This document shows, one piece after another, positions 10,082 through 14,705 of a stretch of 64,000 bases of DNA. Each line of letters begins with the position of its first letter. Within the stretch, counting starts at the first letter, position 1. The notes beneath the pieces were generated by a model. It had not been told where the DNA came from and made no database searches. It saw only the letters and a program-made list of their open reading frames with translations. This stretch comes from an uncultured Methanobrevibacter sp. Lineage in GTDB: Archaea; Methanobacteriota; Methanobacteria; Methanobacteriales; Methanobacteriaceae. Made by a program: the position numbers and the translations under genes. The stretch is from contig NZ_CACZTX010000008.1 in assembly GCF_902784195.1 (NCBI RefSeq), positions 1 through 64,000 on the forward strand, read 5' to 3'.

Positions 10082-10859
10082 TTATATCATTCCTCTCTAT
10101 ATTTTTGACGTAATTATTATTTAGAATAATTGTATTTTGTTTTTATTTAAGATAAAACATAGCTATGGCTAAACTAAATATAATATAAAATAGGATAGAA
10201 ATCTAGCTATGATATAAGTTTTTTTAAATCCAATGCTTATTGATCTTATGATGAATAATCATTAGATGAAATAAAAAATATAATATTAAAATCACAGGTT
10301 AATGGGCTAATGTCACTTTAGATATCTGAAGTGGCCTTATATCAAAAATAGATACAAAAATAGTTATAAAATTTGATTATAAGCTAAATAATTTTTATAA
10401 TCTATAATTTACCTGCTCTGGAATCAATCCATTTAAATTAAAATAATATCATAAAAGTTTTAAATAAGTTTAAAACCCGCCCATAAAGGTTATTGTTAGT
10501 TATGATTTTTATAGTATATAAATATTTTTGATATTATAATTTTTATCTGATAATTATTTTAGTATATTTAGCAGTACATTTAGTTAATTTTTTAAGCTAT
10601 ATTTAACATATCTCTATTATACTCTAAAATATTTTTAGATATATCTTTAAGATATTTTTAAATGTCTTTATATATTTTTGAAAATATTTCAATATTCCAA
10701 TATGTTTCCAGTATATTTCTAGAAAATGTTTAAAATTTTCTTATTTTTTCTGGTTTGCTACTAAAACATTTAAATAATATAAAAAATATAACAATTGTTA
10801 TAAAACTTTTAATGCTTTAGGAATTTGTTTTATTAAAAAAATGAAAGGAGGTAAAAATA
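10082..10859. other. 778-bp divergent intergenic region with a structured segment
   Basis: No ORF of note. It holds the eS1 promoter (minus) and the promoter of the gamma-glutamyl cluster (plus). Positions 10312-10335 form an inverted repeat: core arms CACTTTAGAT and ATCTGAAGTG with one G-T pair, extended outward by a further wobble and a G-C pair. The octamer TAGCTATG occurs twice about 44 bp apart near the eS1 side. A more GC-rich patch (AAAACCCGCCCATAAAGG) lies at about 10471-10488. Confidence 0.45.
10787..10802. promoter_or_regulatory. 16-bp palindrome, candidate operator of the gamma-glutamyl cluster
   Basis: A perfect palindrome, TATAACAATTGTTATA, follows directly on a TATA-like stretch (TTTAAATAATATAAA) and lies ~58 bp before the ATG at 10860. 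That places it near the expected transcription start. A copy with one changed base lies upstream of thiI at 44235-44250. Binding by a repressor is inferred. Confidence 0.5.
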
Positions 10860-11663
10860 ATGTGTGAGATCTTTGGATTTAGTTCATCAAAGGAAGAAGA
10901 ACTTAATGATTATCTTAAAGAGTTCTATAGTCATTGTGAAGAGCATCCTCACGGTTGGGGATTAGCTATTTTAGATTCAGATAAATTCAGCGTATTCAAA
11001 GAGCCTGTTAAAGCTCGAAGCAGTGTAATGCTAGGAAATATCCTATTGAATCCTATCGTTTCTAAAAATGCTTTAGCACACATTCGTTTAGGCACTATTG
11101 GTGTGAAGGACTTTTATAATTGCCATCCTTTCGTTAAAAAAGATAATGCTGGTAGAAGATGGACTCTTATTCATAATGGCACTGTTTTTGACTGTCCTGA
11201 TTTATGTAAGTACAGCACTGAGGAAGAGGGGGAAACAGATTCTGAAAGAATTCTTCTAGCTATTGTTGATTTAATAAACAAATTTGAAGCTTTTAAAGGT
11301 GAGCCTTTAAGCTTAAAGGAGAGATTTGATGTAGTTTCTGACTTAATAAGCTTCATGGCTTTATCAAATAAGTTAAATCTGATTATCTATGATGGAGAAC
11401 AGATGTATGTTCACACAAATTATAGAAATTCATTATGCTATTTGAAAACTGAAAATAGCATTTTCTTTTCAACTCAAGCTTTGGATTCAAATGAGTGGAA
11501 TGAAGTGCCGTTAAATACTGTGCTCTCCTTTTCAAATGGTGAATTGCTATTTGAAGCAAAACCTCATTCATTTGAATATGTTGAAACTGAAGAGCAGCTT
11601 ATGTTCATTGAAAAATTTGCAAGCACTTTAAATAGTGATGTTGAAGAGGAAAATGTGTGGTAA
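10860..11663 (+). CDS. Class II glutamine amidotransferase-like Ntn hydrolase (EgtC/YafJ family)
   Basis: 267 residues. It starts MCEIFGF, so Cys2 becomes the N-terminal nucleophile after Met removal. Family blocks follow in order: HPHGWGLAI, AHIRLGTIG, NCHPF and LIHNGTVFD. There is no synthetase domain, so it is a stand-alone amidohydrolase like YafJ or EgtC. EgtC removes a gamma-glutamyl group during ergothioneine synthesis. The next two genes are gamma-glutamyl ligases, so cleavage of a gamma-glutamyl amide is the natural guess, but the substrate is unknown. A strong ribosome binding site GAAAGGAGGT precedes the ATG. Confidence 0.85.
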   Translation: MCEIFGFSSSKEEELNDYLKEFYSHCEEHPHGWGLAILDSDKFSVFKEPVKARSSVMLGNILLNPIVSKNALAHIRLGTIGVKDFYNCHPFVKKDNAGRRWTLIHNGTVFDCPDLCKYSTEEEGETDSERILLAIVDLINKFEAFKGEPLSLKERFDVVSDLISFMALSNKLNLIIYDGEQMYVHTNYRNSLCYLKTENSIFFSTQALDSNEWNEVPLNTVLSFSNGELLFEAKPHSFEYVETEEQLMFIEKFASTLNSDVEEENVW

Positions 11664-11800
11664 TCCCTCTTATGGTTTTTAAAGTTATGTATGTTTTAGA
11701 AGATATTTTTGAGATTTATTAGAATTCATTAGAAATTTATTAAATATTTATTAGAAAATTTAGAAAAGAAATTTAGAAGTTTAGAAATATGGAAATAAAG

Positions 11801-11815
11801 TCCTTTTTTAAAGGA
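11801..11815 (+). other. Small hairpin between the amidohydrolase and GCS2-like genes
   Basis: Arms TCCTTT and AAAGGA enclose TTT, 30 nt before the next start codon. It lacks a T-tract, so it is more likely an intercistronic or processing hairpin than a terminator. Confidence 0.35.
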
Positions 11816-11844
11816 TAATTTAAATTGGAATTGGAGTTGATTAA

Positions 11845-13245
11845 ATGGCAGATGATACAATTACAGATGAGAGGATAAAGGAAAAGATCTGTCAAATGTT
11901 TTTGGAATCTACTAAAAAATCTAAAAAAGAGTATATTGGGATTGAGATTGAGATTCCAATAATCAACCTTAATAAGGAAGCGGTGGATTTTGACATTGTT
12001 CATCTTGTAACTGAATCATTTAAGAATCATTTTAATTCATTTGAAGTTGAAGGCATAGATTATGATGGCAATGTCTATGCTTTAAGAAATCGTGAAAACG
12101 ATGATATTGTATGTTATGACTGCTCCTATAACAATATTGAATTTGCAATGGGCAAGGAAGAGGACTTATTCACTATCAATGAAAGATTTGAGAAGTATTA
12201 CAGTTTCATTAAGGAAGAGTTCGAAAGGCATAATCATACCTTAAGCGGTATGGGGATAAATCCTTATAGAAAATACAATAATGAAATTCCAATTCCAAAT
12301 GAAAGATACCTGATGCTTTATAATCATTTGAAGTCAACTGAAAATTATTCCGATTCCTTGATGTATTTCCATGATTACCCTGGATATGGCATGTTTTCAA
12401 GTGCTTCTCAAGTCCAATTGGATGTTCCATATGATGATTTGATTGAAAACATAAATGTGTTTTCTAAATTGGAGCCAATCAAAGCATTGATTTTTTCCAA
12501 TTCAGTCCTTTTGGAGGATAATGAGGATTACGTTTGCTTTAGGGATAACCTCTGGGAGTATAGCACTCATGGAATCAATCCTCATAATATTGGAATGTAT
12601 GATATTGAATTTAACAATATTAAAGAATTGGTTTCATATCTTGAATCCTTAAACATTTACTGTGTAATGCGTGATGGAATTTACATTAATTTCCCTTCCA
12701 TGCCTTTAAAGGACTATTTCAATAGCGATTCCATTGTAGGGGAATGCTATTGCAAAGGATCTTATAGGGGCATTGAGTTTAAACCTTCTTTAGATGATAT
12801 TGAATATTTGAGGGCATTTAAATTTATTAATTTAACATTCAGAGGAACTATTGAATATAGAAGTGTTTGCACTCAACCTATCAAGGATTCAATGGCTGTT
12901 GCAGCTTTTCATGTAGGCTTAAAACATAAAACAAAGGAACTTGAAAGGCTATTTTTTTACGCCCCTATATTTCACGATTGTTATAACAGTACAGAACTTA
13001 GAAAATTATTAATAAAAACCGAAATTCCAAGTTCAATTGATCAAGATTCCTTGTATAATCTTGCAAGGGATGTTTTAGATTTGGCAAAAGAGGGTTTGAA
13101 AGAAAGAAATCTTGGTGAGGAAATATTTTTAGAACCATTATACAGAAATGTGGATGAAAGAACAAATCCCGGAAAAAGGATGTTGGATTCATTGAAAGAA
13201 GGAATAAGTTTGGAAAAAATCATTAAAGATTACGGTGATTTATGA
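11845..13245 (+). CDS. Glutamate-cysteine ligase family 2 (GCS2)-like carboxylate-amine ligase
   Basis: 466 residues. Matches to the GCS2/EgtA/YbdK type include the acidic metal/ATP strand EYIGIEIEIPI near residue 32, SSASQVQLDVPYDD mid-protein, the RDNLWEYSTHG segment and RGTIEYRSVCTQP near residue 335. Enzymes of this family join the gamma-carboxyl of glutamate to an amine using ATP. It sits between an EgtC-like hydrolase and a GshA-type ligase. Its stop codon overlaps an in-frame ATG of the next reading frame (ATGA), indicating tight translational coupling. The amine substrate is unknown; it need not be cysteine. Confidence 0.75.
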   Translation: MADDTITDERIKEKICQMFLESTKKSKKEYIGIEIEIPIINLNKEAVDFDIVHLVTESFKNHFNSFEVEGIDYDGNVYALRNRENDDIVCYDCSYNNIEFAMGKEEDLFTINERFEKYYSFIKEEFERHNHTLSGMGINPYRKYNNEIPIPNERYLMLYNHLKSTENYSDSLMYFHDYPGYGMFSSASQVQLDVPYDDLIENINVFSKLEPIKALIFSNSVLLEDNEDYVCFRDNLWEYSTHGINPHNIGMYDIEFNNIKELVSYLESLNIYCVMRDGIYINFPSMPLKDYFNSDSIVGECYCKGSYRGIEFKPSLDDIEYLRAFKFINLTFRGTIEYRSVCTQPIKDSMAVAAFHVGLKHKTKELERLFFYAPIFHDCYNSTELRKLLIKTEIPSSIDQDSLYNLARDVLDLAKEGLKERNLGEEIFLEPLYRNVDERTNPGKRMLDSLKEGISLEKIIKDYGDL

Positions 13246-13262
13246 TATTAAGGTGTGATAAA

Positions 13263-14705
13263 ATGGATAGATTATTCAATTTATCTCAATTGCATAAGAA
13301 TGCAAGTTCAGAGGATTTAAAACAAGGCTCTTTTGGTATAGAATGGGAAGGATTAAGAGTTCGTGAAAATGGAGAGCTTTCACTTAGCCCACACCCTGAA
13401 ATATTTGGAAACAAATTATCAAATCCTTACATTACAACAGATTTCTCAGAAAGCCAGATAGAAATCATCACCCCAACATTTGATACAATTGATGAAGCGT
13501 TTTCATTTTTCTCTTTCATGTCTGATTTAGTTAACAGCTCTTTGGATGATGATGAGTTCCTATGGTTCCAATCATTGCCCTGTATACTCCCAGATTCAAG
13601 CGAAATCCCAATTGCAAAATATAAAGGCAGAGAATTGGCAGAAGAGTCAATGGAATATAGAAAAGGATTAGCTAAGAAATATGGTCTTAGAAAGCAATTG
13701 ATTTCAGGCATTCATTTTAACTTTTCATTCAAGGAGGAACTCTTAGAAAAATTATATGAGAATTTGGATATCAGTGAGATTGAGAGTGATGAGGATTCAA
13801 GGATTTCCTATAAGGAATTCAAGAATATGCTTTATTTGAAAATATCAAGAAATTACATTCGATATGTTTGGCTTATAATCTATCTTACAGGCTGTTCCGT
13901 TGCAGCTCACGATACATTCACTCCAGAATGTACCAAATTGATGGAGCATAGCGATAATCGTGGAGGGGTTTATAGTGAAAGAGGTCCTTCATTCAGGAAT
14001 GCATCTTGTGGATATAAAAATCTAGTGCATTTATATCCTAGTTATCATTCAGTGGAGGAATTTACAAGAGATGTTCAATCTTTCATTGATGAAGGTCACT
14101 TATCACAAGCTAAGGAATTGTACACTCAAATCAGATTAAAGCCTAAAGACCCAAGTGATGTTCTTTCATCTTTAAGAAATGATGGAATTCAATATCTTGA
14201 AGTGAGAACTTTAGACATAAATCCATTTTATAAATGTGGTTTAATAAAAAAAGATATGGATTTTCTCCATTTATTCCTCATTTATACATTGATTGCTGAA
14301 GAGTCAGACTATGAAAATTGGCAAGAGGAAGCTCTTTACAATGAGGAAATGGCTGCTGAGGCAGCATATGACTTTAATATGAAATTGCTTAAAGATGGTG
14401 AGGAAATCAGCTTGGAAGAATGGGGATTAAGAATTCTTGATGAAATTGATGACATGTGCAGAACCTTAGGTATTGGCAGCAGATCCCTTATAGATTCAAT
14501 GAGACAAAGAATTGCAGATCCATCATTGACATATGGAAAAGGTCTCATTAGATTGATTAAAGAAGAAGGTTATATCAACAGTCAAATAAAATTGTCTAAA
14601 ATAAATAAGATAACAAGCAAGTATCTTTTGGAAAATACAGACTTGTTGGATGATGAAAGATTTAAGGAATATGTTCCTATTGCCCTTCAAGGGGCTGAAA
14701 AATAG
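13263..14705 (+). CDS. gshA: Glutamate-cysteine ligase, GshA/GshF N-terminal type
   Basis: 480 residues from ATG 13263, chosen because AAGGTG lies 7 nt upstream; an ATG at 13242 overlaps the preceding stop and lacks a site. Strong family signatures are GIEWEGLRV (25-33), PHPEIFG (43-49), TTDFSESQIEIITP (58-71), YRKGLAKKYG, then ISGIHFNFSF and LEVRTLDINPF. This is the E. coli/GshF-type gamma-glutamylcysteine ligase, without the ATP-grasp glutathione synthetase half of GshF, so the expected product is gamma-Glu-Cys. It closely resembles Firmicutes GshF, suggesting bacterial origin. It is the last gene of the trio. Confidence 0.88.
   Translation: MDRLFNLSQLHKNASSEDLKQGSFGIEWEGLRVRENGELSLSPHPEIFGNKLSNPYITTDFSESQIEIITPTFDTIDEAFSFFSFMSDLVNSSLDDDEFLWFQSLPCILPDSSEIPIAKYKGRELAEESMEYRKGLAKKYGLRKQLISGIHFNFSFKEELLEKLYENLDISEIESDEDSRISYKEFKNMLYLKISRNYIRYVWLIIYLTGCSVAAHDTFTPECTKLMEHSDNRGGVYSERGPSFRNASCGYKNLVHLYPSYHSVEEFTRDVQSFIDEGHLSQAKELYTQIRLKPKDPSDVLSSLRNDGIQYLEVRTLDINPFYKCGLIKKDMDFLHLFLIYTLIAEESDYENWQEEALYNEEMAAEAAYDFNMKLLKDGEEISLEEWGLRILDEIDDMCRTLGIGSRSLIDSMRQRIADPSLTYGKGLIRLIKEEGYINSQIKLSKINKITSKYLLENTDLLDDERFKEYVPIALQGAEK

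Follow-up and report, generated by a model that had tools for sequence, protein, structure and literature searches.

For their thiol redox chemistry, methanogens are thought to depend on thioredoxins and on coenzymes M and B, and EgtC and yeast DUG3 are known as class II glutamine amidotransferase (GATase)-type proteins able to act on gamma-glutamyl compounds. A 2020 review noted GshA homologues, consisting of the gamma-ECL domain only, in Methanosphaera stadtmanae (Msp_0528) and Methanobrevibacter ruminantium, and reported archaeal matches to the glutathione peroxidase (GPx) family (PMC7278568). In yeast, the class II GATase-family protein DUG3 is needed to cleave glutathione and gamma-Glu-Met, and the Dug2-Dug3 complex cleaves gamma-Glu-Met as well (PMC7617739). 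Here, we describe three genes in a 64,000-nucleotide stretch (the window) of contig NZ_CACZTX010000008.1 from an uncultured Methanobrevibacter sp. They encode a class II hydrolase (A), a ligase of the glutamate-cysteine ligase (GCL) fold (B) and a GshA/GshF-type ligase (C), and form the plus-strand run at 10860-14705 that the original prediction, made from the sequence alone, had described. With confidence a little above even, we interpret the cluster as a gamma-glutamylcysteine synthesis-and-turnover module of gut Methanobacteriaceae that includes a second, lineage-specific ligase.

Ligase C matches Pfam Glu_cys_ligase at 302 bits (cutoff 27) and the Pasteurella GshAB structure 3ln7 with E=1e-58. 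Against the GshF/GshAB model it scores 407 bits, below the equivalog cutoff of 425, with a match that ends at position 415 of 756; at ~480 residues, and with the C-terminal ATP-grasp synthetase half missing, C falls outside the bifunctional GshF family. Among the bacterial sequences found, GshAB from pig-gut Ligilactobacillus salivarius comes closest (46% identity, covering 96% of C), which agrees with the earlier remark that one ligase of this methanogen has a bacterial look. C keeps the equivalents of E. coli GshA (1v4g) residues E27, E29, D60, E67, Y131, R132, Q144, H150, R235, Y241, Y300, E328 and R330. None of these 13 positions varies when 18 family members are aligned (mean column identity 57%), and we take the residues to bind metal, glutamate, ATP and cysteine in the E. 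coli GshA structures. Because the active-site residues checked are kept, there is good support for C as a gamma-Glu-Cys synthase, and judged from its sequence C very probably makes this compound, as the suggestion of a gamma-Glu-Cys thiol had anticipated. The best GshB match in the source genome reached 23.5 bits against a model cutoff of 299, with nothing at the cutoff, and glutathione proper was rejected as the product on this sub-threshold match. C lacks the ATP-grasp half and no GshB was found at the cutoff; gamma-glutamylcysteine is therefore the most likely end product.

Hydrolase A begins with M-C-E and reaches 101 bits against Pfam GATase_4 (cutoff 23). Its counterparts of the nucleophile and glutamyl site of class II enzymes, C2, R76, N106-G107 and D127, do not vary across 19 aligned homologues (mean column identity 46%), and we infer that Cys2 is the nucleophile, exposed once Met is removed. 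The AlphaFold model of A (predicted local distance difference test, pLDDT, 90) finds the YafJ-type structure 1te5 as its nearest fold in the PDB, followed by EgtC (4zfk/4zfj), at E 1e-14, and a score of only 52 bits with the equivalog model TIGR03442 for EgtC (cutoff 219) places A outside EgtC proper. A is thus a predicted stand-alone hydrolase domain of the class II GATase_4 fold, quite likely acting as a gamma-glutamyl hydrolase. Its profile and fold matches include GlmS and PurF too, and with its class II glutaminase core A might, like the glutaminase parts of those enzymes, simply feed ammonia or glutamate to the ligases. We consider this highly improbable, since A is a free-standing domain of 267 residues nearer to YafJ and EgtC than to GlmS, partners two unlike ligases, and GCL-fold ligases generally take amino acids or amines as substrates, not channelled ammonia. 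Ergothioneine synthesis, already judged unlikely in the original prediction, was rejected after an EgtD search of the genome gave no match (EgtB was not searched for). At position 88, A carries an invariant cysteine within an NCHPF motif, where YafJ-type 1te5 has NTHPF; C88 might play a part in handling thiol substrates or in control by redox state.

A Pfam search of ligase B returned no match. It scores 65 bits against the NCBIfam plant-type GCL model TIGR01436 (cutoff 463), as a homologue outside the certified family, and matches plant GCL structures by sequence at E ~1e-8. The AlphaFold model of B (pLDDT 80) shares the GCL fold, with the plant GCL 2gwc as top structural match (E=6e-17, template modelling scores 0.78/0.83), and profile alignment of B to two alphaproteobacterial GCLs with hhalign gave a probability of 98%, E=2e-14 and 22% identity. 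B is accordingly a predicted relative of plant/alphaproteobacterial-type GCL, so that the earlier division into one hydrolase and two ligases holds while the kinship assigned to B had to be corrected. A YbdK-type identity was rejected (sequence-profile E=0.12, structural score below that of plant GCL), as was the idea that B and C are recent duplicates, their profiles failing to align (hhalign probability 1%).

B keeps the GxExE glutamates, R233, E337 and R339, and relative to the two alphaproteobacterial GCLs it replaces EPGG[AQ]xELS by CSYNNIEF and GADGGPW by SVCTQPI. At these replaced motifs D92-C93-S94-Y95-N96-N97 and S340-x-C342-x-Q344-P345 are invariant across the B family, which is the most conserved of the three (mean column identity 68%). 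From its sequence and modelled fold, B is likely to be an active gamma-glutamyl ligase whose acceptor recognition has probably changed; that cysteine is its acceptor we would put at somewhat less than an even chance. Among 132 genomes of the phylum, strong matches to the B profile occur in Methanobacteriaceae only.

Next, we counted the three genes in 150 genomes of the order Methanobacteriales, A being counted at strong matches. B occurs in 77 genomes, C in 84 and A in 80, and all three together in 71, mostly gut Methanobrevibacter and Methanosphaera; A+B without C was found in four genomes, A+C without B in five, C alone in eight, B alone in two and A alone in none, and 60 genomes have none of the three. 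Hence A always accompanies B or C (80/80 genomes). Two ligases side by side, noted earlier as unusual, are so for methanogens generally; within this order they occur in about half of the sampled genomes, and GshA homologues had already been recorded there (PMC7278568). Among public loci with B and adequate flanks, A lies directly upstream of B in 45 of 47 and C directly downstream in 42 of 47, giving the order A-B-C in 42 of the 47 testable loci, an arrangement far beyond chance because it is present in dozens of species.

The proposed check of gene order across Methanobacteriales thus found it conserved, though modular. A-C pairs without B occur at L141, L144 and L153-L156 (loci are numbered L, genomes G), and A-B pairs without C at L140/L142, L145, L147, L165, L167, L173 and L178. 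In trees of A, B and C the states A-B-C, A-B and A-C interchange repeatedly, so that the trio appears as two hydrolase-ligase partnerships in one run; in L155, the first part of the A-C spacer resembles that of the A-B spacer in the related L093, suggesting a deletion of B from L155. Genomes with A-B only and with A-C only, as though B and C were interchangeable, and the nearest kin of B by sequence and fold would also fit a scheme in which both are glutamate-cysteine ligases with distinct kinetics or regulation, with A recycling the shared product. We regard this as quite unlikely: the B family is more conserved than the C family, its substrate-loop motifs are unlike those of the alphaproteobacterial enzymes, and the 71 genomes with the full trio retain both ligases.

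In the synthesis-and-turnover module that we favour, C would use ATP to couple cysteine to glutamate through the gamma-carboxyl group of the latter. The resulting gamma-Glu-Cys would be the end product and would act, as it does in haloarchaea, both as a low-molecular-weight thiol and as a store of cysteine. The N-terminal-cysteine hydrolase A would split the gamma-glutamyl bond to give glutamate and cysteine, in the manner of Dug2/Dug3 and EgtC. B would be a second ATP-dependent gamma-glutamyl ligase, with the plant GCL fold and altered substrate loops, yielding a related gamma-glutamyl compound that A would trim too. A bolder version, in which B is a new gamma-glutamyl ligase of Methanobacteriaceae, chiefly of their gut lineages, with a non-cysteine acceptor, its product trimmed by A, and gut methanogens make a novel gamma-glutamyl compound or thiol alongside gamma-Glu-Cys, is possible, and we think it less likely than not.

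The original prediction had also proposed that the trio builds a compound through a glutamyl intermediate which the hydrolase then trims: B (or C) would glutamylate an amine, other enzymes would elaborate it and A would deglutamylate it, as in the EgtA/EgtC route, to give a novel sulfur compound. A and B do form the tightest unit, overlapping in 35 of 48 public loci, the loops of B are altered, and many Methanobrevibacter loci have ThiS, ThiF, LarE and FdhD genes near the trio, together with SsuA/NMT1-like sulfonate-type binding proteins. The ThiS, ThiF, LarE and FdhD neighbours are, however, missing at the window locus and shuffled in order among the others, and C, with its GCL active site intact, forms A-C pairs without B. 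No tailoring enzyme tied specifically to the trio, or always present at its loci, was found. We therefore consider this pathway, which is possible and found no specific support here, unlikely. A sulfur-carrier/LarE pathway as fixed partner of the trio was rejected, LarE being nearly universal in the order (140/150 genomes, trio-free ones included). At L118, L112, L103, L173 and others, a ThiS-like sulfur carrier is encoded immediately 5' of A, divergent ThiF-LarE and FdhD genes are close by, and the SsuA/NMT1-like binding proteins flank the trio.

A possible redox role of the module is suggested by its relation to GPx-family genes. These genes, often two, lie beside A at Methanosphaera-type loci (L148/L209, L151, L165, L167, L210, L211), where a flavodoxin-like gene and macro-domain and SIR2 genes also adjoin the hydrolase. 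Across the 150 genomes, A and GPx occur together in 71, A only in nine, GPx only in nine and neither in 61, and the association is seen within each of three large genera (Fisher p=0.045, 1e-7 and 0.007). In the source genome, GPx is on another contig (contig 5), away from the trio. No reductase for gamma-Glu-Cys was identified; Pyr_redox_dim proteins occur in the majority of genomes, which makes their co-occurrence with the trio too widespread to be informative. Three Methanobrevibacter genomes (G126, G035 and G014; L205, L207, L208) encode a high-scoring glutathione-reductase/mercuric-reductase-like protein, which in G126 adjoins GPx.

Several observations weigh against our interpretation. 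The tests of A with GPx are stratified by genus and uncorrected for species-tree kinship. GPx-family enzymes are able to use thioredoxin, and at Methanobrevibacter loci L201 and L214 the GPx-family gene adjoins a thioredoxin-reductase-like gene, a layout that suggests a thioredoxin-fed peroxidase; the GPx link is therefore weak evidence for a thiol. The four genomes with A and B lack C, the proposed source of gamma-Glu-Cys, and the replacement of the plant-type EPGG[AQ] and GADGGPW motifs makes a simple duplicate-GCL role for B doubtful. Finally, an early survey, in the part quoted by the 2020 review, lists five unidentified methanogens without glutathione or gamma-Glu-Cys (PMC7278568).

The features of the locus are collected in Table 1. 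The open reading frame of C as called opens at 13242 (13242-14705, 487 residues), which gives a 4-nt overlap with B. Since C starts at the equivalent of Met8 in the near relatives L091-L093 (480 residues, 17-19 nt past the B stop), this overlap probably stems from a miscalled start, the true one more likely being that at 13263, which has AAGGTG just 5'. The earlier statement that the last two genes overlap thus probably survives as same-strand adjacency, without the overlap itself. The A-B spacer measures 141-147 nt in close relatives and is absent from most other relatives, in which A and B overlap.

Table 1 Features of the A-B-C locus (window positions).
Feature	Position	Strand	Remarks
Shine-Dalgarno-like AGGAGGT 5' of A	10846..10852	+	sequence inspection
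A: predicted class II glutamine-amidotransferase-fold hydrolase	10860..11663	+	GATase_4; EgtC/YafJ/DUG3-like; 267 aa
A-B spacer	11664..11844		181 nt; gap comparison with relatives' loci
B: predicted glutamate-cysteine-ligase-fold carboxylate-amine ligase	11845..13245	+	plant/alphaproteobacterial-type relative; 466 aa
C: predicted GshA/GshF-type glutamate-cysteine ligase	13263..14705	+	~480 aa from proposed start

The relatives that carry names are all Methanobrevibacter or Methanosphaera, apart from a misnamed bin and one plain "Methanobacteriaceae archaeon". The former is a "Bacillales bacterium" metagenome-assembled genome (L126); a bacterial origin of its B gene was rejected because the gene order of the contig equals that of Methanobacteriaceae loci L131 and L150, and the bin is likely misnamed or contaminated. 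Similarly, the B gene of G080 (G080:C61) matches Methanosphaera contig G037:C3 exactly in its coordinates, A-B genes included, despite the different classification of the two genomes, and its contig is probably Methanosphaera contamination; G080's own A-C locus is without B. At L121, on a contig named Methanosphaera sp. rholeuAM130, A, B and C group with Methanobrevibacter sequences, reflecting transfer or misbinning. Searches of plasmid records gave distant relatives of A and B only. On the Thermococcus barophilus plasmid pTBMP1 (L229:6001-7313), a class II glutamine amidotransferase adjoins a gamma-glutamylcyclotransferase.

The 2020 review had recorded homologues of C in these archaea, and the A-B-C association appears undescribed: no description was found in the open-access literature, outside which most subscription papers lie. 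The M. ruminantium genome paper mentions neither glutathione nor glutamate-cysteine ligase. If correct, our interpretation would add a glutathione-like thiol to the physiology of the main gut and rumen methanogens, perhaps with a part in peroxide defence inside an incompletely anoxic host. The trio would also be a specific enzyme set in organisms that produce much of the methane from livestock, and the B family, whose gene context is defined, offers a candidate new specificity among ligases.

The closest described systems each share part of this design. B shares the fold and the catalytic glutamates and arginines of plant/alphaproteobacterial GCL (2gwc; Ruegeria WP_011536696), and differs in its ~22% identity and in the two replaced substrate-loop motifs. 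Yeast Dug2-Dug3 likewise includes a class II GATase-family protein and cleaves glutathione and gamma-Glu-Met (PMC7617739), whereas A adjoins ligases; a Dug2 partner did not turn up, no DUG2 search having been made. In mycobacteria, a gamma-Glu-Cys ligase (EgtA) and a class II gamma-glutamyl hydrolase (EgtC) are likewise clustered, and the A model matches EgtC 4zfk, whereas the genome studied here has no EgtD match and A lies below the EgtC cutoff. C aligns at 407 bits to the N-terminal GCL half of GshF (GshAB) of Firmicutes and Pasteurellaceae, and differs from it in being without the C-terminal ATP-grasp synthetase half. The stand-alone GshA of haloarchaea (Haloferax volcanii HVO_1668, PMC7278568) is likewise a ligase from archaea for which gamma-Glu-Cys is the expected product and which has no GshB; C differs from it in being of the GshF type, nearest to GshAB of gut Firmicutes, in coming from a methanogen, an anaerobe, and in its linkage with both a hydrolase and another ligase.

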